From Eubacteriaceae bacterium (lineage in GTDB: Bacteria > Bacillota > Clostridia > Eubacteriales > Anaerofustaceae), in assembly GCA_017531485.1 (NCBI GenBank), contig JAFXKY010000041.1:1-38793 (forward strand): a DNA stretch of 38,793 bases. The letters run 5' to 3'. Under the pieces are notes generated by a model that searched no databases, was not told the origin of the DNA, and saw nothing but the letters and a program-made list of their open reading frames with translations. The position numbers and the translations under genes are program-made. Positions 1 to 10,260 of this stretch are shown one piece after another (the first letter of the stretch is position 1; each line of letters begins with the position of its first letter).

Positions 1-24
1 ACTTGGAATCAATACGAGTCCATT

Positions 25-44
25 ATATATATATATATATATAT
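25..44. repeat. (AT)10 dinucleotide microsatellite
   Basis: Ten uninterrupted AT units lie just beyond the terminator of the sipW locus. No gene overlaps it convincingly. Length variation or assembly slippage is likely here. Confidence 0.9.
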
Positions 45-123
45 GCAAGCCTTTTTTGATAAAAAGTCAAAATTTCTATATGTAAAACGTGGTTATAATT
101 CATTCGCAGAAGCTTTTTCCGCA

Positions 124-154
124 CAAAAAAAGAGCATACATTTACTGTATGCTC
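124..154 (-). terminator. intrinsic terminator of the sipW/TasA-like locus
   Basis: Read on the minus strand, a perfect 9-bp stem (GAGCATACA with TGTATGCTC, 5-nt loop) is followed directly by a run of seven T. It lies 8 bp past the stop codon of the 825-aa pilin-like gene and closes the locus that starts near 8753. Confidence 0.93.
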
Positions 155-161
155 CTGTGTT

Positions 162-2639
162 TTATTTTACCTTTCTTCTCCTCACAACGACCTTTGCGGT
201 TGCAAGTATGAACATCCAGATCATTCCGAGGTAAAGCATGAACATCGTATCATCGCCCGTTGACGGTGATGACGGTTCAACGAATTTATAATATTCGTTT
301 TCAAACGCAAACTTCAGTTCTTCGACATAATCTCCCGCTACTTTGACTTCCGTTATGATCTCGTTGTCTTCACTGAGCGTTACATCCACCGTAAACGAAT
401 ATTCCTGCGTGCTGTACGTTACTCCTTCAACACCGGTGTTCTTTTCGTATACCTTATATTCAAAGCTCTTTCCGATGTCGTCTTCACTGAACGTAAGACC
501 GATCGTCGCATTTCCCTTCTTGTCGGAGATGCCTTCGAACTTCGCTCCTGTTTCAACATTTTCAACCACGAATTCGAATCCTTCCGGAGAAAGCTCTCTA
601 TTTCCGGTATTCTTGACCGTCTTGACGATTCCCACTTCGATGATTCTGTCTTCCGGCTTCGGAGTATAGATATTTTCGAATACGAGCGTATCCTTAGCGC
701 TTCCGCCGGCTTTCACGATCTTCGTTTCGCTCAGCATCTTTCCTTCAAGACCGTCTGAGATAGTAACCTTGATGTTGTATGCTGACATATCGTACGTCAC
801 TCTGTCGATCGGTGTGCGGGTATCTTCCTTGACCACGAAGTAGTATTCCCCTGCGTTTTCAAAGCTCAGGTTGTCAAACGTAAATGCTCCGTTTGCGAGG
901 TTGATCGCGTCATCAAGCGCCGCGGAGTCGATAACATAATCCTCTCCCGTGCGGTAGATGTGGAATGTGAACATGCCGTCTTTGAGACTGCCGCCGCGGA
1001 GTTTCTTGATTCCGCCGAGGGATACTATCGCCTTTTCTGCCTTATATGTGTTGACAAATTTGATTTCTTTGTCTTCCTTCACAGCATATGTCGCTTCAAG
1101 CTGACCGCCTTTGTCCGTAACCGTTACAGTCACTTCAAATAAGCTTTCGTCATAAGTAACGCCGCCGAGTTTTGCTGAGCCGTCTTCTTTGATCGTATAT
1201 ACATGCGTTCCGACTTTGTCAAAGGCAAGTTCGGGGAAAGCGAACTTATCACCCGTGTTCTTCACGGAAGCAATGACATTCTCCCCTGAAATAAGGTCGA
1301 ATGAGAATTCTTCATCTGCGATGTTGCGGCCGACGAGTTCTTTCTTGCCGCCGAGAACGAGTTTCGCATCCACAGGGTCATAGATATTGGCGAACTTCGC
1401 TGCATATACCGCATCTTCCGTTCCCTTCACTACAGCCTTGACCGTTCCGTCAAGATTATCAATGACTTCCACTTCGAAAGTGTAAGCCGTTTCGTCGTAT
1501 GTATATCCCTTCTGGCCTGAATTTACTTCTTTAAGCGTATAAACAAACGTCTTGCCCGCATCAGCCGCGCTGAAAGTAAGGCCGAAGCCCGTTTCGCCTG
1601 CCGCTGTTGTAGGTTCAGAAATGAGAGTATCAGTTCCGTCGGAGAGTTCGAATGTGAAGCCTGACGGTGTCTTGTTCTGGCCGGATTTATCTTCGAGAGT
1701 CTTTGTGATATTGACCTTGAATTCCGCTGTTCCTTCGGGAGCGTAAGTGTTGGTGATACTTACATGTACGTTATATCCCTCTTCGTTCTTCGTAACAACA
1801 GCGCTGTTCGTTCCGGTAACTTCGGAGATTTCCATATATCCGTCCATGTCGTTATCCGTAACAACGATGTCGAAATATGAAACGATGCTGTCGTACTCAA
1901 CCCCGCCTGTGCTGCCTTCAACTTCGGATACTCTGAACGAATATGTGCCGAGTCTACCAAAAGATACAGCCGAGATCACGTCGTTGAAATCGAATTTGTT
2001 GAATTCGCTGTTCTCCGCGCTGTAAACAACATCCTTCGTCGCTAAGTTTTCCCATGTTTCAGCCTTTTTCTGTTCGAGGACGAGGGTGAACTTATCCCCT
2101 TCCTGCCATTCTCTTCCTTCGAGGAGCTTTTCACCGGTAAGGGTGATTACTTCTCTCGGAAGTGACGGAGAGTATGTATTCGTGAAGCTGAAGCTGATAT
2201 TTTCATCCTTGGAGATCACTCCCGTTTTGCTCACTTCGTCCGCCGTAAAGCCCGGCTTCTGAGAAGTTTCCGTAACGGTGATGACTGTACCTTCGTAAAG
2301 CTCGCTGATTGAGAATTTTTCGCCGTGTTTAAGGGAAATTCTGACTTCTCCCGCTTCGTCTGCGGTGATATCTCCGAGAGATGTCTTCACACTTGCAAGC
2401 TTATAATATTCGCCAAGGCTGATCGTGAAATCAAACGTCATATCTGACGGCATGACGTAACTTTCTCCGTATGGGTGAACAACGGTCTTTTCAACCGTCA
2501 GTCCGTTGGTTGGCTCCACCGTCGGCGCGAAGGTGTTGAAAAACGTATCCGTCTTCGTCACGACATACGCAAGCGTTCCGCCTACAGACGTGAAAAGTAA
2601 CATCACTACCGCAACCAACGCGATTATTTTCTTCTTCAT
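162..2639 (-). CDS. multi-domain pilin-like surface protein (Spy0128/FctA-type repeats), SipW-type signal, sorting-like C-terminus
   Basis: This 825-aa protein starts after an AAAGGAGG site 5 nt from ATG. Residues 1-30 form a hydrophobic signal ending in GGTLAYVVTK, a variant of the SipW-dependent TasA signal. Six Ig-like modules follow, each ending in an F-x-N-x-Y type strand (FTNTYSP near 156, ITNTYAP near 298, FANIYDP near 419, FVNTYKA near 530, FENIYTP near 657, FENEYY near 782). In streptococcal FctA-type pilins the Asn of this strand forms an intramolecular Lys-Asn isopeptide bond, and each module here has an early K-x-L/V strand that could supply the Lys. The C-terminus has SPSTGDD (an LPxTG-like form), a membrane segment and RRRK. 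That suggests sortase anchoring, though no sortase gene is in the window. It is the last gene of the locus. Function as a wall-linked stalk or fibre is inferred. Confidence 0.85.
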   Translation of the reverse strand: MKKKIIALVAVVMLLFTSVGGTLAYVVTKTDTFFNTFAPTVEPTNGLTVEKTVVHPYGESYVMPSDMTFDFTISLGEYYKLASVKTSLGDITADEAGEVRISLKHGEKFSISELYEGTVITVTETSQKPGFTADEVSKTGVISKDENISFSFTNTYSPSLPREVITLTGEKLLEGREWQEGDKFTLVLEQKKAETWENLATKDVVYSAENSEFNKFDFNDVISAVSFGRLGTYSFRVSEVEGSTGGVEYDSIVSYFDIVVTDNDMDGYMEISEVTGTNSAVVTKNEEGYNVHVSITNTYAPEGTAEFKVNITKTLEDKSGQNKTPSGFTFELSDGTDTLISEPTTAAGETGFGLTFSAADAGKTFVYTLKEVNSGQKGYTYDETAYTFEVEVIDNLDGTVKAVVKGTEDAVYAAKFANIYDPVDAKLVLGGKKELVGRNIADEEFSFDLISGENVIASVKNTGDKFAFPELAFDKVGTHVYTIKEDGSAKLGGVTYDESLFEVTVTVTDKGGQLEATYAVKEDKEIKFVNTYKAEKAIVSLGGIKKLRGGSLKDGMFTFHIYRTGEDYVIDSAALDDAINLANGAFTFDNLSFENAGEYYFVVKEDTRTPIDRVTYDMSAYNIKVTISDGLEGKMLSETKIVKAGGSAKDTLVFENIYTPKPEDRIIEVGIVKTVKNTGNRELSPEGFEFVVENVETGAKFEGISDKKGNATIGLTFSEDDIGKSFEYKVYEKNTGVEGVTYSTQEYSFTVDVTLSEDNEIITEVKVAGDYVEELKFAFENEYYKFVEPSSPSTGDDTMFMLYLGMIWMFILATAKVVVRRRKVK

Positions 2640-2669
2640 GGGAGCCTCCTTTCGTGTATTTCAAAATAA

Positions 2670-3371
2670 TTATTTTATTTCTTTTCCTTCTTCATCATAG
2701 AATGTCGGGACAGTAACCGGAATATCGTCGATACCTGATTCGCTTTCAAGCTGATACGCATGCACAACGGAATAAACCCTGACTTCGTCATTTTTGAATT
2801 CCGTATATTTACCGTCTTTATATATCTTATGTCCCTTGACATTTACTTTTTCATCAAGATAAAATCCATAAACCGCCGCAGGGGTCTGAGGATAGTCTGT
2901 ATCTTGTTCGGCTTTCGCAGGGAGAGATTTGATATACGTCAGTGCATAGACATTATATTCCATGCCCTTGATCATTGTCGTTTTTTCCAACTTTGTTTTT
3001 GTATATAACGACGTGTCCGTATTATAATCCATATGCAGAATGCCGTCGTCATCAAGCATTTTTGGAACTGCAACATAGAATCTGATGTATTCAGCGTTTT
3101 CGCCGGTGTTCTTTGCGGTCAGTATATACTCCGCAAAGCCGGACTTTTCCCTTGCTCCGTCTGCCACAAGCGGATAAAGAACCATTTCTTTGCTTTTTGT
3201 TATGTTAAATTCCACAAGCGGTTTTGTCCCATCCGTCTGCGCCTGAGTCGTGAAGACCTGCATTTCCTGCGAATATTCCCCGCTTTGCATTGTCTCATAT
3301 CCGAGCTTTCCGCTGACGAGCGCCGTCAGAAGGAGAACCGCCGCAAGACTTATGTAAAAAACTCTTTTCAA
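2670..3371 (-). CDS. divergent TasA-like exported protein with TTG start
   Basis: The 233-aa protein begins at TTG; no ATG lies before the signal peptide, and GGGAGG sits 9 nt upstream. Residues 1-22 are a hydrophobic signal. It lacks the A-Y-L-x-D motif of its neighbours but keeps other family features: an N-terminal strand region, a block reading EYIRFYVAVP that matches the YVRILVAVP-type block of neighbouring TasA-like proteins, and the late segment DEKVNVKG resembling the LDEHIDCD-type turn. It ends in DIPVTVPTFYDEEGKEIK without an anchor. It lies 30 bp upstream of the 825-aa pilin-like gene and may be its partner or minor subunit; that is inference. Signal peptidase usage (SipW or ordinary) is unclear. 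Confidence 0.75.
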   Translation of the reverse strand: MKRVFYISLAAVLLLTALVSGKLGYETMQSGEYSQEMQVFTTQAQTDGTKPLVEFNITKSKEMVLYPLVADGAREKSGFAEYILTAKNTGENAEYIRFYVAVPKMLDDDGILHMDYNTDTSLYTKTKLEKTTMIKGMEYNVYALTYIKSLPAKAEQDTDYPQTPAAVYGFYLDEKVNVKGHKIYKDGKYTEFKNDEVRVYSVVHAYQLESESGIDDIPVTVPTFYDEEGKEIK

Positions 3372-3390
3372 TTTAATTCGCCTCCCATTT

Positions 3391-3444
3391 GGTGCTCAAA
3401 GGACACTTCCCAAGCGCCCTTTGAACACCCCACGAGTGGGGTGT
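3391..3444 (-). promoter_or_regulatory. two mutually exclusive hairpins upstream of the TTG-start gene
   Basis: On the minus strand, hairpin A pairs ACACCCCA with TGGGGTGT (3425-3444, loop CTCG). Hairpin B pairs GGTGTTCAAAGG with CCTTTGAGCACC (3391-3402 with 3418-3429, one G-U pair). They share bases 3425-3429, so both cannot form fully at once. Hairpin B ends 4 nt before the GGGAGG ribosome binding site at 3381-3386. Neither is followed by a T run, so control of translation or mRNA processing is more likely than termination. The switch role is inferred. Confidence 0.55.
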
Positions 3445-3457
3445 AAGTGTGAATTAA

Positions 3458-5152
3458 TCACGGTTTTGCAATATCTTCCCAACCGTCATTTGCTAAATAA
3501 CGACCGAGTTCACCATTAAATGTTCCACCTGTTACTGAAACATTTTCCTGTGTTGTTTTAGCATTTCCTCCACCGAAACATACATCACCATTGAATGTTC
3601 CGCCTGTGATCGTAACATCTACATTCGCGAAACTCTGACCTGCAGAATATGAATATACAGCTAATCCTGTTGTACTGTTTAATTTTCCGCCGTTGATCGT
3701 AAGGTTAATTTCCGGAGCATCTGCCGGCTTGTTGCTCGGAAGCTGAATCTGGATTGCTCTTGAACCTGTAATTGTTCCACCGTTGATTGTGCAGTTGATT
3801 GCACCTGCACCGAACGGGCAGAGACGGATAGCGTTCTTCTGACTTACAATCTCACCACTGTTAACGATAAGTTCAGCACCTGCTGAGCAGTCGATTGCAA
3901 CGCTTGAACCGCTGTCTGTTGTGTTGATGATTGTAGCACCGTCAATTACAAGTTTGCCTGTGTTGTTGATTGTGTTTGTGCCGTAGCCGAAGCTCGGATC
4001 GCCAACGCCTTCGTATGTAACAGTACCGTTTTTGAGTGTAAGTGTACCTTTATTCGTGATTGCTGATGAAGCTTTTGCTTCTGTGCTTACGAGGCTGATT
4101 TCATTACCTGCGAGGTCAATAGTAACTTCTTTACCTGCGGGAATTTCAAATACTTCTGTAAGTTCAAGATCTTTTGCGAGTGAAACTGTAACAGAATCAC
4201 TTGTTTTTAATGCTTCTGTAATTTCGTCAACTGATGAAACAAACGGAGCTGTCGGAATGCTCATACCGCCAAACCATTCAGCTGCTTTTTCTGCTGTTAC
4301 ATCACCGAAAGCTGTATCAAGAGCTTTTTCAGCATCTGCGAATCCGTTTGTCTGAACTGCCTGAGAGAGAACGAGGATGTCGTATGTACCGTTCTTGTTG
4401 CCGTCGATTGCTTCAACGTCTTCGTTTGTTGCTCTTGAAGCCATGTAAACCTGACAGAGGTTCGGGTATGTAGTTGCTCCTGCGGGGAGAATACCATTTT
4501 CATGTTTCCAACCGCTACTTGTATTAGCACCTGTATAGATTAATTCATAAACGTGATATTTATTTCCATCAATTTCTACATAGTCTACGAAACCTTTTGT
4601 CCACGGCTGTTTACCGTCGATATTCTTATCAGCTTCTGTTGCACGCATTTCAGTCATGATAAGGTTCTGATTCGGATATTCTGCACTTACAATCTCAGCT
4701 GTGCCAACTTCAAGTGCAATAATCGTACGCACGTAAGCATCTGATTTTCCTGTGTTTTCAACAGTTACGAACTTATCAACTGCATTCGGAGTATTGAATA
4801 CGCTTGCTCCGCCGTGAGAATCAACCTGAGACATTCTTACAGGGATATCATCGTAATCCCATGTTATTCCGATAGCTGTTCCACCATTGGGAACGATTGC
4901 GGGATAAAGCGGTTTAGCCTGTGTGAAGTCTGTAAGAACATAGCTCGTCTGATTGTCGATTGTGTCAGTTTTGTAGTTGCCATTTTCAACTACTCTTTCA
5001 TACTCATGCTGTTCAATGTAAACGTTACCAAGAGTCATAACGTTAACATCGCTGTCTGTGTCCTGAAGGTACGCGATCGTTGCGCCTACAGATACAGATG
5101 CGACCATTGCCATTACGAGCACGAAAGCAATGATTTTTTTGAAAGTCTTCAT
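3458..5152 (-). CDS. SipW-dependent TasA-like N-domain fused to right-handed beta-helix
   Basis: The start at 5152 (MKTFKKIIAF, 564 aa) is chosen over the longer frame from 5239 because the signal peptide begins there and AGAAAGG lies upstream. The signal ends in GATIAYLQDTDSDVNVMTLG, the SipW-type motif. A TasA/camelysin-like beta domain follows to about residue 290, with the EYERV and YVRTIIALEVG strands typical of the family. From about 300 to 564 there are repeated rungs of the form T-I-N-G-G-x-I/T (LTINGGKL, VTITGGTFNGDV, VSVTGGTFNGEL), the pattern of a parallel beta-helix. The C-terminus has no membrane anchor. It is one of two such fusions in the locus. It is probably secreted and surface-retained; binding of carbohydrate or matrix is only a guess. 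Confidence 0.85.
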   Translation of the reverse strand: MKTFKKIIAFVLVMAMVASVSVGATIAYLQDTDSDVNVMTLGNVYIEQHEYERVVENGNYKTDTIDNQTSYVLTDFTQAKPLYPAIVPNGGTAIGITWDYDDIPVRMSQVDSHGGASVFNTPNAVDKFVTVENTGKSDAYVRTIIALEVGTAEIVSAEYPNQNLIMTEMRATEADKNIDGKQPWTKGFVDYVEIDGNKYHVYELIYTGANTSSGWKHENGILPAGATTYPNLCQVYMASRATNEDVEAIDGNKNGTYDILVLSQAVQTNGFADAEKALDTAFGDVTAEKAAEWFGGMSIPTAPFVSSVDEITEALKTSDSVTVSLAKDLELTEVFEIPAGKEVTIDLAGNEISLVSTEAKASSAITNKGTLTLKNGTVTYEGVGDPSFGYGTNTINNTGKLVIDGATIINTTDSGSSVAIDCSAGAELIVNSGEIVSQKNAIRLCPFGAGAINCTINGGTITGSRAIQIQLPSNKPADAPEINLTINGGKLNSTTGLAVYSYSAGQSFANVDVTITGGTFNGDVCFGGGNAKTTQENVSVTGGTFNGELGRYLANDGWEDIAKP

Positions 5153-5197
5153 TTTTTCTGCCTTTCTGTGTGTGTGTTTTATTTTTTCTGCTTTTTT

Positions 5198-5225
5198 TAT
5201 GTAATCGGTTTCCCGTTTACACCAC
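5198..5225 (-). promoter_or_regulatory. shared leader element, copy 1
   Basis: On the minus strand this reads GTGGTGTAAACGG, a GAAA loop, then CCGATTACATA. A close copy precedes the other beta-helix fusion gene (6687-6714). Both contain a short CGG-loop-CCG stem, and both lie in the 5' leader within about 50 nt of the start codon. Confidence 0.55.
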
Positions 5226-5233
5226 TTTTGGTT

Positions 5234-5253
5234 CCCCACCCCGAAGGGTGGGG
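5234..5253 (-). other. intercistronic UUCG-tetraloop hairpin
   Basis: On the minus strand, CCCCACCC pairs perfectly with GGGTGGGG around a C(UUCG)G tetraloop. It lies 33 bp after the stop of the 457-aa gene and 81 bp before the next start. No T run follows, so it may be an mRNA stability or processing element rather than a full terminator. Confidence 0.7.
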
Positions 5254-5285
5254 TAAATTATTTTTCTGCTGTGTTGATTGTTGAA

Positions 5286-6659
5286 TTATTTAATTGTAAC
5301 TGCCGGTACGTTTCCGCCACGGATGATTCCGTCTGTGTTATCAACGTAATAAACCGGTGTGCCACCGTTCATTGTGCATGTGTCGAATGTGATCGGCAAT
5401 TCGTTTGCGCCTGCAAGAACTACACGGTTGTTGAATTCACAGCCATTGAATTCAGCGGGGCTGTAAACACGGATACCTTTTTCAGCCCAAATGCTTGTAG
5501 TATCTGTGTTCTCAAATACGCAGTCATTGAATGTTACAGTACCTGTTACGTCTTTGTTAGCACCGATCTGGATTTTACCTGTTTTGAATGTGCAGTTGTT
5601 GAATACAGCATCACCAAAGAGTTCATCATAGTGAACTGCTGAGTTAGCACTTCCTACATCAAATGTGCAGTTGTCGAATGTAACATCATTGATGTACATG
5701 TAGTTCATGTTTGCTGTAAATGTGCAGTTAACGAATTCGATGTTGCGGTCTTTGTAGTAATGACCATTAAACGGGTTGCTTGTAATTTCAGCATCTGCAA
5801 TGATGACATTGTATGCACCATTATCGAGAGCAGCTACAACTTCTTCTGCTGATTTAACAACAACTACTTCTTCCCACGGATTTGTCGGAAGACCTGAAGC
5901 TGTGAATGCATCGTCAGCTGTTTCGAAGCCTGAAGCCTGAACTGCCTGTGCAGCTACCGGAATGATTACAGGTTTAGAGAAGTCGAAGTTGATTGCCTGA
6001 CCGTCGAGGTAGTAGATACCTGTATCCGGATCACAATCAATGTGTTCATCAAGATAGAAACCTACAAATGCAGCTGCGTCTGTTGTTTTACCTGCTTTAA
6101 GAGCTGTCTGGTATGTGAATGAGTAAACATTGTATTCAATACCATCAATGTTTGCAGGATCTTCAACTTTCATTGTGATATCAGCATAATTTGCGTTTGC
6201 GTTGTTTGTATCCTTGTTATAGCTTCCGTCTGAGAAGAAACGGTTTCCGAGGTTCCAGTGAAGTGCGTTCTTAGCTGAAGCCTGTGTTGATTCTTCAAGA
6301 ACTGCAGGAACTGCTACGAGGATGCGGACATAAGCATCGTTGATGCCTGTGTTTTCGATGTTAACGATCTTGTCAACATAGTTTGCAGCTGTCGGCATAC
6401 CGTATTCGTCTTTTTCGCCCTGAGCTGATCCGACGATCGGAAGAAGCTGTTTTCCCTGTTCGAAATCTTCGAGTCCAGTGAGATCGCCTTTTTCGTCGTA
6501 TGCTCTCTGCTGTTCGATGAGTTCGATGTTGACTTTACCAACTGTCATAACGTTGACTTCTGTTTCTGTGTCTGTGAGATATGCAATAGTAACGCCTGTG
6601 AATGCTGATGCGATAAGCGCTACTGCCATGCATAATGCCACTACTTTTTTTGTACTCAT
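5286..6659 (-). CDS. SipW-dependent TasA-like N-domain fused to beta-helix with N-C ladder
   Basis: The start at 6659 (MSTKKVVALC, 457 aa) is preferred: the longer frame from 6677 would place the AAAGGA ribosome binding site inside the coding region. The signal ends in GVTIAYLTDTETEVNVMTVG, a canonical SipW-type motif. A TasA-like domain runs to about 265, including YVRILVAVP and FYLDEHIDCD. Residues 270-457 hold a beta-helix whose rungs repeat a Cys after Asn or another small residue: FVNCTF, FDNCTF, FNNCTF, FNDCVF, FNGCEF, FDTCTM. Such stacked Asn/Cys positions suit an internal ladder in a parallel beta-helix. There is no anchor. It is a paralogue of the next gene downstream (3458-5152), sharing both architecture and leader element. 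Confidence 0.85.
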   Translation of the reverse strand: MSTKKVVALCMAVALIASAFTGVTIAYLTDTETEVNVMTVGKVNIELIEQQRAYDEKGDLTGLEDFEQGKQLLPIVGSAQGEKDEYGMPTAANYVDKIVNIENTGINDAYVRILVAVPAVLEESTQASAKNALHWNLGNRFFSDGSYNKDTNNANANYADITMKVEDPANIDGIEYNVYSFTYQTALKAGKTTDAAAFVGFYLDEHIDCDPDTGIYYLDGQAINFDFSKPVIIPVAAQAVQASGFETADDAFTASGLPTNPWEEVVVVKSAEEVVAALDNGAYNVIIADAEITSNPFNGHYYKDRNIEFVNCTFTANMNYMYINDVTFDNCTFDVGSANSAVHYDELFGDAVFNNCTFKTGKIQIGANKDVTGTVTFNDCVFENTDTTSIWAEKGIRVYSPAEFNGCEFNNRVVLAGANELPITFDTCTMNGGTPVYYVDNTDGIIRGGNVPAVTIK

Positions 6660-6686
6660 TATGTATTTTCCTTTCATGTTTGTTTA

Positions 6687-6714
6687 TATGTATCGGCCAT
6701 GCCGTCTACACCAC
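6687..6714 (-). promoter_or_regulatory. shared leader element, copy 2
   Basis: On the minus strand this reads GTGGTGTAGACGG, a CATGG loop, then CCGATACATA. It matches copy 1 at 5198-5225 except in the loop and at two other positions, and it lies 27 nt upstream of the 457-aa gene start. It overlaps the region just after the preceding stop codon. Confidence 0.55.
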
Positions 6715-6716
6715 AT

Positions 6717-7322
6717 TTATTCGATGACGATCTCCACATCCGCCGGATTGATTATCTCCCACGCATTTATCGCCGTATCGATCTTTTCATACTGCACCGC
6801 ATATGCTGTCACGTTAAGCTTCGGAAGATCGACCATATCCCTGAGGGATTCTTTCGTTATTTCCGCCCTGAGGTTTACCGTATCGTCCTTTATTACGCCG
6901 AAAACCACATCGTCCTCAGCCTTTTCCACGATCCTGAAATAAACTCCCTCGACGGCTTTCCCGTCCTTATCCTCAAGCTGTGTCCAGCCATCCGCGATGG
7001 TATATTCAAGATATTTGTCAAACTCGTTCTGTTTTTCAAGTCTGACCATGAGCCATGATTTTTCACTGCCTTTCAGAACCGTCACCTTCGGGTCCTTTTC
7101 GATCGTCTGCCCAACTATCATTTCATAAAGGTTGGTCTTCGGATCATCATCCCCGTCAAGTCCCGTGTCCGTTTCCGTCAGTTTTATCGTGATATCGCCG
7201 TATGTGAAGGTATTTACAACTGCTTCCGTCTTATCCATCATCCACGCTACGCTCGGCGCGACGAATGTGGTCGTGAGCACGATTATGGCTGCTATCAGCG
7301 CCGCTATCTTTGTTCTCTTCAT
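6717..7322 (-). CDS. small TasA/camelysin-like protein with SipW-type signal
   Basis: This 201-aa protein starts after GGAAGG 7 nt upstream of ATG. The signal core is followed by APSVAWMMDKTEAVVNTFTY, a divergent SipW-type motif with Trp in place of Tyr. The mature part has the family order seen in CalY/TasA: a GDITIKLTETD strand, a GQTIEKDPKVTVLKGSEKSW strand-turn and a WLMVRLEK strand. The short length and lack of extra domains suggest a fibre-forming or minor subunit. It lies 21 bp downstream of the 263-aa relative, within the same operon. Assignment to the family is by motif order; polymerisation is inferred from TasA. Confidence 0.8.
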   Translation of the reverse strand: MKRTKIAALIAAIIVLTTTFVAPSVAWMMDKTEAVVNTFTYGDITIKLTETDTGLDGDDDPKTNLYEMIVGQTIEKDPKVTVLKGSEKSWLMVRLEKQNEFDKYLEYTIADGWTQLEDKDGKAVEGVYFRIVEKAEDDVVFGVIKDDTVNLRAEITKESLRDMVDLPKLNVTAYAVQYEKIDTAINAWEIINPADVEIVIE

Positions 7323-7343
7323 CGCAATACCTTCCTTTCTTTA

Positions 7344-8135
7344 TTACTGAATTTCGATTTCGTCGTTAGTGTTTTCTGTCTGTGTCGTCTGAGTAATTGC
7401 CGCTTCTGCCGCCATCTGGTTTGAGAATGCTTCCCATGCAACGTCTTCAGCCGTCTTTGTTACCTTATCCGGCTGACCTTCTTCACCCGGTTCTGTAACA
7501 TCACTGAATCCTGTTGCCTGAATTGCGTGACCTTCGACAACGATGCGGAAGTTTCCGTCATAGAGCGCTTTGAGTTCTTCGCCGTTGAGTGTTGAAGGAA
7601 CTGAGAGGTGTGTGAACAGCGGTTCAAGTGCCTTCGCCGTATCTTCGCCCGCAACCGCTTCTTTATATCTGAATTCGAATGAGATAGCGTTTTCCGGCTC
7701 GTTTACAGAGAATCCTTTGTATACCCATACCGTTTCATCCCAGCCTTCGAGAAGATCCGCATAATCATTAAGTCCGTTCTTTGCGTTTGCGATGATCGTA
7801 TCTACCGCACTGCGGTTATATACTGTCATGATCATTCTTATGTATGACTTTTCGCTTCCTGCGCCGAGAGTGATCGTCGGGTCTTTCGTATATTTCTCGC
7901 CGGGAACGAGGTGATATTCGTTCTTCGTGACCCTTGTGGGAGGATCAGTCGTCGGTTTTCCGTCCGGTGTTACCTCCGTTTCGTCAAGAGTGATCTGTAC
8001 CTGACCTACGGTGAATGTATTTATTACCTTTTCCTGATCGGTGAGGTATGCGAGAGTTCCTGTAAATACCGCGCTTGTCATCATCATTACGCACAGTACA
8101 AGGAGTGTGATCTTATACTTATTCATTTTTTTCAT
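7344..8135 (-). CDS. TasA/camelysin-like SipW substrate
   Basis: The start at 8135 (MKKMNKYKIT, 263 aa) follows AGGGAG by 5 nt; a start at 8126 is also possible. The longer frame from 8186 would add a basic extension before the signal and overlap sipW further. The signal ends in TGTLAYLTDQEKVINTFTVG, a textbook SipW-dependent motif. The mature region has VQITLDETEV, LVPGEKYTKDPTITLGAGSE and SYIRMIMTVYN, matching TasA/CalY order. The ATG lies inside the end of sipW, so translation is probably coupled. The pairing with sipW resembles tapA-sipW-tasA in Bacillus, where TasA forms extracellular fibres; the same role here is inferred. Confidence 0.88.
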   Translation of the reverse strand: MKKMNKYKITLLVLCVMMMTSAVFTGTLAYLTDQEKVINTFTVGQVQITLDETEVTPDGKPTTDPPTRVTKNEYHLVPGEKYTKDPTITLGAGSEKSYIRMIMTVYNRSAVDTIIANAKNGLNDYADLLEGWDETVWVYKGFSVNEPENAISFEFRYKEAVAGEDTAKALEPLFTHLSVPSTLNGEELKALYDGNFRIVVEGHAIQATGFSDVTEPGEEGQPDKVTKTAEDVAWEAFSNQMAAEAAITQTTQTENTNDEIEIQ

Positions 8136-8673
8136 CTTCTCTCTCCCTGGCTTTCTTCTTTTCTTTCTTCTTGTCTTCGTCTTCAAATATTATGTCGGGA
8201 AGGATCACCAAAAGCAGTATCAGCGCTCCTCCGGCTATTGCGAAGAGTCTTCCCGGCTTTGTCTGCATATAACTTATCAGGTATCCCAGTTTCGGAACTG
8301 TGAATATCGGCTTTCCGATTATGTTCTCGGGACTTACGAGGCTTCCGTCCGCCATGTCGTTTGCATCCCCCTTCGTCCTGTATGCCACAGTGCCGTTTTC
8401 GTTTACCACCTCTATTATGCGGTGGGTGGCGAGTGTATCCCCGCCTGAAATGGCGAAGGTTATTATGTCCCCTTCCGTAAGTGAATACGGATCATCAACA
8501 TCCTTTACGTATATTACGGAACCTGTCTGATACGTCGGTTCCATTGATCCCGAAAGCACTGTGTATATATCTATCCCGAATACTCTCACTCCTGCGAGGA
8601 GCATCGCGAGGATCACGACAAGAAGCACAAGGATCGTCGTGAATCCGTTAAAAATCTTTTTTAAAATCTCCAT
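8119..8673 (-). CDS. sipW: SipW-type signal peptidase I
   Basis: The 184-aa membrane serine peptidase begins at 8673 (MEILKKIFNG), with GGGAG about 11 nt upstream; starts at 8691 and 8727 are in frame but have weaker sites. The protein has an N-terminal membrane segment, the nucleophile box LSGSMEPTYQTGS, LATHRIIEV (His of the Ser-His dyad in the SipW/ER class, replacing the Lys of ordinary SipS) and RTKGDAND. A second membrane segment lies near the C-terminus, followed by a very basic tail rich in KKKEKKKARERE. It is the first gene of the locus and should process the TasA-like signals encoded downstream. Its end overlaps the next start by 17 bp. Confidence 0.93.
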   Translation of the reverse strand: MEILKKIFNGFTTILVLLVVILAMLLAGVRVFGIDIYTVLSGSMEPTYQTGSVIYVKDVDDPYSLTEGDIITFAISGGDTLATHRIIEVVNENGTVAYRTKGDANDMADGSLVSPENIIGKPIFTVPKLGYLISYMQTKPGRLFAIAGGALILLLVILPDIIFEDEDKKKEKKKAREREDEKNE

Positions 8674-8752
8674 AACACGGATTTCTCCCATGAACTTTTC
8701 TTCGCAGAATAAGTTTTCCGCGAACACGGGTGCCTAGACGTACCCACATGGA

Positions 8753-8781
8753 AATATACCACAAATCAACCATTTTATCAA
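8753..8781 (-). promoter_or_regulatory. sigma-A promoter of the sipW locus
   Basis: On the minus strand, TTGATA (8776-8781) and TATATT (8753-8758) are 17 bp apart. Transcription would start near 8746, leaving a leader of about 70 nt before sipW. The remaining 190 bp up to the lplA terminator show nothing else I recognise. Confidence 0.8.
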
Positions 8782-8973
8782 GGGTAAAAGGAGCAAAAAA
8801 ACTTATTTTTACTTTCCGGGTCCTCCCCTTGAAAAAAATAGCTAAAAAAGCCATTTATGCCATTATCTTACGCTTCTGTAAAATGACGCAAACCATTCTG
8901 AAGCACACAAAATATTGCCCAAAACCAAACGACAACAAGATGCAGGATCATAGAATCAGCGCCGCCTTACGCA

Positions 8974-9004
8974 ACAAAAAAAATCCTGCAAAAACACAGG
9001 ATCT
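8974..9004 (-). terminator. terminator of the lipoate ligase gene
   Basis: On the minus strand, ATCCTG and CAGGAT pair around an 8-nt loop and are followed by eight T. It begins just after the lplA stop codon. Confidence 0.8.
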
Positions 9005-9007
9005 TTC

Positions 9008-9985
9008 CTATTCATAAATCAATATTTCCGCAATGTCTTTCGCCGAAACTCCGGAGATGATATCAAGTCCGTCCGCGGCACTTATGATATCTTCCGTTCT
9101 CAGCCGCACACCTTTCAATGCCTCTTCAAGCGTCGATATTTCTCCCCTTGCGAAGAAATCTCCCGAAAAGTGAATATCGCGGATGGTGCCGCCGTCGAGG
9201 TCGAACTCCACCGCCACGAGCCCTGCGGGAAGCTTTTTCTTTCGGGAAACGGAGAGCTTCACTCTTCCCCCGAAATTATATTCCCATTTCGAAAATTTTT
9301 CCGTCACAAGTTTTCCGACAGCCGACCGGTCTTCATCCGTAAGGACATATTCCTCTGCGTCATAAACTCCGGAGAGGTCTTTTATGAGTATCTCTCTCAG
9401 TTCTTCCGCACTTATGCCCTGACTGATAAAGTCGCTGATATTCGCCACCCTGCTACGGACGGAAGAAATGCCCCTTCCCGAATATTTCTCAGGGTCAACA
9501 CTCAGCACTTCCGACATATTTTCAATATTCACATCCACCATGACCGTACCGTGGCAAAGTACCTTATTTCCTGAAATATGCTGTGCGTTTCCGCCGATTT
9601 TTTTATCACCGACCAGCATATCATTCCTGCCGCCGAGAGATGCGTTCACCCCGAGTTTTATGAGAGAATCGATAACAGGCTGCACATACGGCGAAAAATC
9701 TATCTCGTCACCCTTTTTATGGCACACAAACGAAAAATTCAGGTTACCTTCGTCGTGATATACAGCCCCGCCGCCTGACAGTCTTCTTGCGAGATATATA
9801 TTATTTTCCTCAAGGACCCTCATGTTCACTTCGCTGAGGGCGCTTTGATATTTTCCGATAATGACGGAAGGAGCATGAATATAAAAAATCATATATTCAT
9901 CCACAAATTTCCCGTTACTCATCAGATATTCTTCCAAAGCCATATTACAATATGGAATCTTATAATCCGAGCAAATATATTTCAT
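9008..9985 (-). CDS. lplA: lipoate--protein ligase
   Basis: The enzyme activates lipoate with ATP and attaches it to a lysine of lipoyl domains (2-oxoacid dehydrogenases or glycine cleavage H protein). This 325-aa protein follows GGAGG 5 nt from ATG. It shows the family motifs RRLSGGGAVYHDEGN (lipoyl-AMP binding loop), NDMLVGDKKIGGNAQ with the catalytic Lys, and CHGTVMVDVN. Residues from about 245 form the accessory C-terminal domain, so it is a full-length LplA. It stands alone between its own terminator and the argS operon terminator; no lipoylated enzyme is encoded in the window, so its target is elsewhere. Confidence 0.95.
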   Translation of the reverse strand: MKYICSDYKIPYCNMALEEYLMSNGKFVDEYMIFYIHAPSVIIGKYQSALSEVNMRVLEENNIYLARRLSGGGAVYHDEGNLNFSFVCHKKGDEIDFSPYVQPVIDSLIKLGVNASLGGRNDMLVGDKKIGGNAQHISGNKVLCHGTVMVDVNIENMSEVLSVDPEKYSGRGISSVRSRVANISDFISQGISAEELREILIKDLSGVYDAEEYVLTDEDRSAVGKLVTEKFSKWEYNFGGRVKLSVSRKKKLPAGLVAVEFDLDGGTIRDIHFSGDFFARGEISTLEEALKGVRLRTEDIISAADGLDIISGVSAKDIAEILIYE

Positions 9986-10260
9986 CCCAACCTCCGGAGA
10001 TCATTATACCTCATTTCACCCGTTTTTCCTAATATTTTCGCATTTCATCCTTGATTCATCCCATGTCTTCCGATAACAAGGGAGGGCGGGAAGCGCTGCA
10101 GAGCTGCGTTTCTCGGGAAGATGGAGATATAAAAAACAGATCTTTAATTACGAAGAATATTGCAGCGCGGGGATCTTAAACGGAAGATTTGCGCGAAGGC
10201 GCAAATCAACCTTACCAACCCACAAAATACCCGGGATATACTTCCCGGCCTATTATTTTC
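9986..10260. other. intergenic stretch with hairpins
   Basis: No convincing gene is present. A perfect hairpin lies at 10186-10207 (GATTTGCGC, loop GAAG, GCGCAAATC). GCGCTGCA near 10094 and TGCAGCGC near 10160 form a longer inverted repeat. A GC-rich hairpin at 10231-10248 is listed separately as the argS-operon terminator. Confidence 0.5.
10222..10250 (-). terminator. probable terminator of the pncB-ddl-argS operon
   Basis: On the minus strand, CCGGGA and TCCCGG pair around AGTATA and are followed by GTATTTTG. The T tract is weak, so termination may be partial. Confidence 0.5.

Follow-up and report, generated by a model that had tools for sequence, protein, structure and literature searches.

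TasA-type fibers are known as structural components of the matrix, built from few subunits. TasA polymerizes by means of an N-terminal donor strand, and TapA is modeled as giving the first strand (PMC9674648). Elsewhere, TA repeats in promoter spacers switch the hif fimbriae of Haemophilus influenzae (review, PMC3899988). Here, we describe a sipW locus in a contig of 38,793 nucleotides from an Eubacteriaceae bacterium of the gut that is related to Anaerofustis (JAFXKY010000041.1, assembly GCA_017531485.1); this whole stretch is called the window. It is contig C30 of a metagenome-assembled genome (MAG), a draft of 2.17 Mb that is 95% complete. The locus is best read as encoding a TasA-type extracellular fiber with swappable β-helix display, probably anchored to the wall by the pilin p7 and supplemented by putatively phase-variable carriers elsewhere in the genome, a reading to which we assign a probability of about 60%. 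In this bacterium, a TasA-like carrier with its export signal seems to be a general socket. The genes, by position in the window, are:

8119 to 8673, minus strand: sipW, an archaeal/endoplasmic reticulum-type (Ser-His) signal peptidase; its start is probably the ATG at 8673 rather than the GTG at 8727, with 8691 also possible.
7344 to 8135, minus strand: p2 (T1), a small TasA-like protein with a SipW-type signal (TIGR04088 and a borderline Peptidase_M73 match).
6717 to 7322, minus strand: p3 (T2), a small TasA-like protein with the mature start AWMMDKTEAVVNTF (phmmer to p2, 6e-14).
5286 to 6659, minus strand: p4, a TasA-like carrier with a β-helix-like tail from about residue 270 of a 463-residue open reading frame (ORF), starting probably at 6659 (TIGR04088, phmmer, codon adaptation index 0.73).
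3458 to 5152, minus strand: p5, a TasA-like carrier with an N-domain to about residue 294 and a right-handed β-helix tail at about 300 to 560 (AlphaFold2 model, VIA).
2670 to 3371, minus strand: p6, a TasA-like β-sandwich (phmmer to the p4 N-domain, 4e-11; alignment; model predicted local distance difference test score [pLDDT] 64.6).
162 to 2639, minus strand: p7, an FctA/Spy0128-type pilin of six modules that has a SipW-type signal at its start and the sorting-like tail PSTGD at its end (Pfam and inspection).

The seven ORFs run from 8727 to 162 on the minus strand with short gaps, in the order sipW, p2, p3, p4, p5, p6 and p7, and form an apparent operon. An earlier note on this DNA had described a SipW-type peptidase and six exported proteins in one locus, comprising two small TasA-like proteins, two TasA-like proteins with β-helices, one divergent TasA-like protein and one six-module pilin; all seven ORFs were found, closely spaced and in the same direction, and that list is correct. 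The same note had set this number against the one or two fiber proteins, plus TapA, of known Bacillus systems. A SipW-profile scan with one genome per species returned at least 567 relatives, from which 79 loci were kept, and most of these loci contain two to six SipW-signal (TasA-like) proteins; several TasA-like genes per sipW locus are thus normal in gut Clostridia, and their number is by itself nothing unusual.

The window belongs to a locus type, here called type B, in which SipW is followed by T1 and/or T2, by one or more carriers of about 450 to 770 residues and by an FctA protein. The same order was seen again at seven loci from other Clostridia (L044, L053, L083, L092, L093, L101 and L183, the last being an additional sipW locus of the L042 genome), from MAGs labeled Lachnospiraceae, Oscillospiraceae, Ruminococcus, Peptococcaceae and Clostridia. 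SipW–T1/T2–carrier(s)–FctA is a conserved locus type, and the possibility raised earlier that these genes might lie scattered in other genomes does not hold. The sorting-like pilin is the regular last gene of type B loci and no unusual addition. No paper describing the type was found in a literature search made largely without subscription journals. In type A loci, SipW is joined by several TasA-like proteins of short length, then by a large secreted and a further TasA-like protein, an anchored protein and, in many cases, a sortase; a sortase gene ends the sipW operon in the type A loci L011, L045, L063, L073, L076 and L079, and none was present in the sampled loci ending in FctA. The sister genome, the one further member of the genus that the search returned, carries type A loci (L011 and L010) with a secreted protein of 1188 to 1243 residues and an anchored protein, the sortase being in L011; it has neither an expansion of p5-type carriers nor TA tracts. 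In three MAGs labeled Candidatus Saccharibacteria (L047, L072 and L090), sipW precedes three or four TasA-like genes and a common downstream gene set.

A search of the genome with the p5 N-domain identified eight further full carriers on seven contigs (two on C73 and one each on C47, C16, C78, C39, C28 and C62) and a carrier fragment on contig C2. One strong SipW faces these eight dispersed p5-type carriers and the fragment, since the window's sipW is the sole strong TIGR02228 match in the 2.17 Mb. Assembly artefact was considered as the source of the dispersed copies and was rejected: the two copies on C73 and the one on C47 lie inside long contigs with unrelated neighbors, and the dispersal is real. 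N-domains of the carriers are 48 to 84% identical to one another, and their tails mostly 19 to 32%, with two pairs at 39% and 47%. For nine of the ten carriers (p4, p5 and the eight paralogues), tail and N-domain find their best outside matches on different carriers. The tail of p4 shares 77% identity with its counterpart in a Clostridial carrier, compared with 39% for the N-domains; that of p5 shares 75% with its counterpart in a Tyzzerella protein, the N-domains being unrelated; and that of the C39 carrier is 74% identical to the tail of an outside carrier, with N-domains at 49%. Because tails are 74 to 77% identical where N-domains are unrelated or 39 to 49% identical, these comparisons show that tails move between carriers and have been exchanged over evolutionary time. 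Matches to Pfam Pectate_lyase_5 ("putative pectate lyase-like adhesive domain") were obtained for two tails, and one of these exceeds the cut-off. A class-wide scan with a carrier N-domain (E ≤ 1e-15, 391 sampled genomes) gave matches in this genus only, with at most six candidates scored per genome, so that the counts are lower bounds. Close carriers occur in several other fetched genomes and the family is patchy; plasmid records contained no relative of p4.

Two further carrier arrangements were observed. In the genome of L042, a carrier in a tandem array (L183, 8155 to 10179) is broken by a TAG stop, so decayed copies exist. Tyzzerella carriers (L099, 11526 to 18988) have another TasA-like N-module (TTFAWFTDSVSS..NIIKSGNL); one is 1768 residues long, and one of 670 residues has a p5-type tail.

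The dispersed carriers are also marked by their flanking DNA. The sequence TATATATATATATATAA occurs four times in the 2.17 Mb, each time (4/4) in a −35/−10-like spacer facing a carrier, with spacers of 13, 13, 14 and 15 nt and tracts of (TA)8–10; these lengths come from one MAG assembly, which may mis-size repeats, and their differences are between paralogues only. The carrier C73a has an interrupted TA tract and a spacer of 18. Five more carrier contigs start within or just past a TA tract, and the tract accounts for the assembly breaks there. The window itself ends in such an element, the first of three DNA signals listed here by position:

1 to 49, minus strand: TA-tract promoter TTGCAT-15-TATAAT (tract 39 to 23) of a further carrier, whose start is expected just past the contig end (inspection).
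130 to 156, minus strand: intrinsic terminator closing the operon after p7, with an 11-pair stem and a T-run; terminator-like.
3396 to 3425, minus strand: 3′ stem-loop core TTCAAAGGGCGC..GTGTCCTTTGA after p5, an 18-bp stem in context, without a U-run (z −5.8 for an 88-nt stretch).

The last 24 bases of the window on the minus strand are identical to the first 24 of contig C28, and another carrier is therefore very likely to follow the p7 terminator beyond the contig end. The 3′ stem-loop has seven copies in the genome, all seven just 3′ of p5-type carriers, p5 included. It was considered as a recombination site and set aside: most copies at the orphan carriers are followed by a T-run and are read as terminators. 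The copy at p5 has no such run, which leaves transcription free to read through to p6 and p7. From their position, we infer that the TA tracts may be active promoters and may switch the carriers.

The assignment of the peptidase and of its substrates rests on several matches. For the sipW product, TIGR02228 scored 106 bits (cut-off 51.85) and NCBIfam SigPepSipWBacil gave 3.8e-40, which falls short of the cut-off of the latter model; the product has the Ser-His pair of the S26 family, with Ser in SGSMEP and His in THRI. TIGR04088, the NCBIfam model of the SipW-dependent signal (cut-off 19), scored 26.9 bits for p2 and 24.9 for p4; in p5 the motif is visible at 13.2 bits. Pfam Peptidase_M73, the camelysin family, matched p2 at 22.1 to 22.6 bits (cut-off 22.5) over the N-terminal 50 residues only, and 20 of 33 carriers and relatives matched it at E ≤ 0.01. 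p2, p3, p4 and p5 are linked by phmmer (p2–p3, E = 6e-14; p4–p5, 7e-18). The T1 family is present in most sipW loci, and the T2 family is conserved across them. In an alignment, the donor-type motif AYxTD...N was missing from p6 behind the signal; this protein could accept a strand but not donate one.

The AlphaFold2 model of p5 (mean pLDDT 79.6) consists of an N-terminal β-sandwich followed by a right-handed β-helix. Residues 20 to 41, past the signal, are disordered in this monomer model, as expected of a donor strand. The helix superposes on pertactin, SRRP and PfbA (VIA Z about 19; 213 to 244 residues; root-mean-square deviation 2.8 to 3.3), and pectate-lyase-like enzymes are also among its matches at Z about 19. 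The VIA matches listed for the p5 model were taken up by the β-helix. A β-sandwich is present in both models, those of p5 and p6. Collectively, a TasA-like working of these proteins is well supported by motif and context, and a TasA fold of their N-domains is supported, not proven, by the signal and donor motifs together with the β-sandwich models.

p7 consists of six modules, five FctA domains (Pfam, 1.2e-66) and one DUF7601 (5.2e-14), and by inspection the isopeptide positions of each are occupied by Lys, Glu and Asn. The mature N-terminal motif [AG][YFWL]x...N[TIV][FM] lies within the first 110 residues of all seven FctA pilins of sipW loci, which were picked by their FctA domains, and of none of 900 other ORFs; its spacing is the same in p7 (AYVVTKTDTFFNTF) and T2 (AWMMDKTEAVVNTF). 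Because this motif, common to SipW substrates, corresponds to the donor-strand region of TasA, and TapA is modeled as the giver of the first strand, p7 may begin the fiber and fix it to the wall; that it is the wall anchor is probable. The same genome encodes another FctA protein on contig C67 (L146, 4024 to 13641), of 3205 residues with 15 FctA matches, an ordinary signal and a p7-like sorting tail, PETGDD. A separate sortase-pilus locus on contig C76 (L147, 378 to 9408) has two sortases, LPxTG-type pilins, a surface protein of 1461 residues and a signal peptidase.

A sequence of events can be proposed for the fiber. SipW would cut the special signals of p2 to p5 and p7, a step supported by their sequences. 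By analogy with TasA, the freed N-terminal strand, starting A-[YFW], would then plug the β-sandwich of the next subunit to give a fiber. Codon usage suggests that p4 and p5 would be the abundant subunits and T1, T2, p6 and p7 minor parts. In the model, the right-handed β-helix of each carrier would face outwards as an adhesin or a polysaccharide-binding domain. p7 has the mature N-terminal motif in common with the other subunits and lacks a TasA-like acceptor domain, so it would give the first strand, the role modeled for TapA in Bacillus subtilis, and its sorting tail would tie the fiber to the wall; p6, a sandwich without the donor motif, may cap the other end. Finally, the same SipW would serve the other carriers, and slippage of the TA repeats within the promoter spacers of these genes could switch them; the cells of a population would then display different sets of β-helices. 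Best supported are the conservation of the type B locus, the exchange of tails and the fact that TA tracts and stem-loops coincide exactly with carriers; polymerization, wall anchoring by p7 and switching are inferred. The fiber with display domains proposed in the earlier note stands as the best reading and is likely; the dispersed carriers, TA promoters and tail exchange lie beyond the locus on which it was based. The fuller picture, a combinatorial, switchable coat in which a modular display scaffold carries β-helix cargo exchanged between species, dispersed carriers are phase-varied by TA tracts and an FctA pilin both nucleates and anchors, is tentative and falls slightly short of an even chance.

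Several observations weigh against the proposed fiber, beginning with the single-assembly origin of the TA lengths. In a Foldseek search with the p5 model, the TasA fiber 8aur came at rank 43 with E = 0.45, a weak match. Four TasA-like profiles, searched against the sequences of the Protein Data Bank, did not retrieve TasA. The uncertain p6 model matched generic β-sandwiches at VIA Z of 7.2 or less, none reaching 8, and the absence of TasA from those matches carries no information. The C-terminus of p7, PSTGD-TM-RRRK by eye, scored 13.3 with the LPXTG model (cut-off 15.9); no sortase is encoded in the window, and those of the genome are on contigs C76 and C35 only. Codon adaptation counts in favor of the fiber, with the limit that its reference was two ribosomal genes of the sister genome: it is 0.73 for p4 (ribosomal-like), 0.65 for p5 and 0.55 to 0.65 for seven orphan carriers, compared with 0.31 to 0.50 for the other operon genes (p7, 0.40) and 0.34 to 0.56 for nine housekeeping genes elsewhere in the window, and it suggests that the carriers are abundant subunits. 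None of ten other genomes with related systems has a TA tract, so switching, if real, would be special to this lineage.

This last result also fits the alternative that survives best, namely a display-fiber operon without phase variation, in which the TA tracts are AT-rich spacers copied along with the duplicated carriers. The paralogues have the promoter, the 5′ coding sequence and the 3′ stem-loop in common, which shared descent explains. However, uninterrupted tracts of eight to ten units decay where neither slippage nor selection maintains them, and all four sit exactly between the −35 and −10 of a carrier and differ in length; on balance, the account is unlikely.

A still less likely explanation holds that the products are separately secreted, wall-associated adhesins that share SipW export and do not polymerize, p7 being an ordinary sortase-anchored surface protein. 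The resemblance of carrier tails to PfbA and SRRP is what such adhesins would show, the TasA fold is not proven given the weak 8aur match and the generic sandwiches matched by p6, and the genome does hold sortases and a separate sortase-pilus locus. Against this, the mature donor-type motif is common to the TasA-like proteins and the FctA pilins and was found in 0/900 other ORFs, and the SipW-dependent relatives TasA and BsaA make filaments (PMC9674648, PMC7395162). A pilus built by sortase, in which p7 would form the shaft and the TasA-like proteins would be accessory or tip components, is improbable. The five FctA domains, the sorting-like tail and the sortase genes ending the six type A operons might point to it; against it, neither the window nor the sampled FctA-ending loci have a sortase, p7 has ordinary codon usage (p4 and p5 being near ribosomal), and BsaA of Clostridium perfringens polymerizes without the neighboring sortase (PMC7395162).

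Two further DNA signals complete the annotation of the TasA-type operon:

8753 to 8781, minus strand: promoter-like site TTGATA-17-TATATT ahead of sipW, its −10 being preceded by TG (consensus scan; weak, position fits).
5234 to 5253, minus strand: GC hairpin between p4 and p5, without a T-run on the sense strand (z −4.2 for a 91-nt stretch).

The site at 8781 to 8753 is one of 15 promoter-like sites found by the consensus scan, with 15.2 expected by chance; the single promoter proposed earlier therefore draws its support from the spacing of the genes and none from the count of such sites. An Rfam search of positions 1 to 10000 gave no match, and the hairpins between the genes thus correspond to no known riboswitch.

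The socket for exchangeable adhesin-like domains seemingly occurs in many uncultured gut Clostridia. Should the TA tracts switch, they would constitute a system of antigenic or adhesive variation on a biofilm fiber in a commensal. The predicted fixation of such fibers to the wall would be by an FctA pilin bearing the fiber's donor-type end.

Compared with described systems, the locus resembles tapA-sipW-tasA of B. subtilis in its dedicated SipW and in SipW-type signals with the mature end A-[YF] (PMC9674648). That system has one fiber protein and TapA, whereas the window encodes two small TasA-like proteins, two β-helix carriers, the donor-less p6 and an FctA pilin; family searches gave no TapA match, and the extra carriers elsewhere in the genome are a further difference. 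The sipW-bsaABCRSD operon of C. perfringens is likewise a clostridial sipW operon, and its TasA-like BsaA forms very stable extracellular polymers without the local sortase; it has one main fiber protein and a two-component system, and the available part of the report (PMC7395162) mentions neither β-helix carriers nor an FctA pilin. In Bacillus cereus, sipW-tasA-calY with CapP yields sortase-independent heterofilaments of TasA and CalY; display tails and an FctA protein are not described in the available part of that source (PMC13082335), and no CapP-like gene was recognized here. With sortase pilins of the FctA/Spy0128 type, p7 shares its five FctA domains, isopeptide-type Lys, Glu and Asn and sorting-like tail, and it differs from them in its SipW-type signal, its donor-type mature end and the lack of a sortase in the locus. 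The hifA/hifB promoter also has a TA repeat between the −35 and −10 of a surface-fiber gene, as do all four putative promoters here; in that system, switching has been shown at one divergent promoter, whereas in this genome several dispersed display genes would, to judge from their DNA, be switched.

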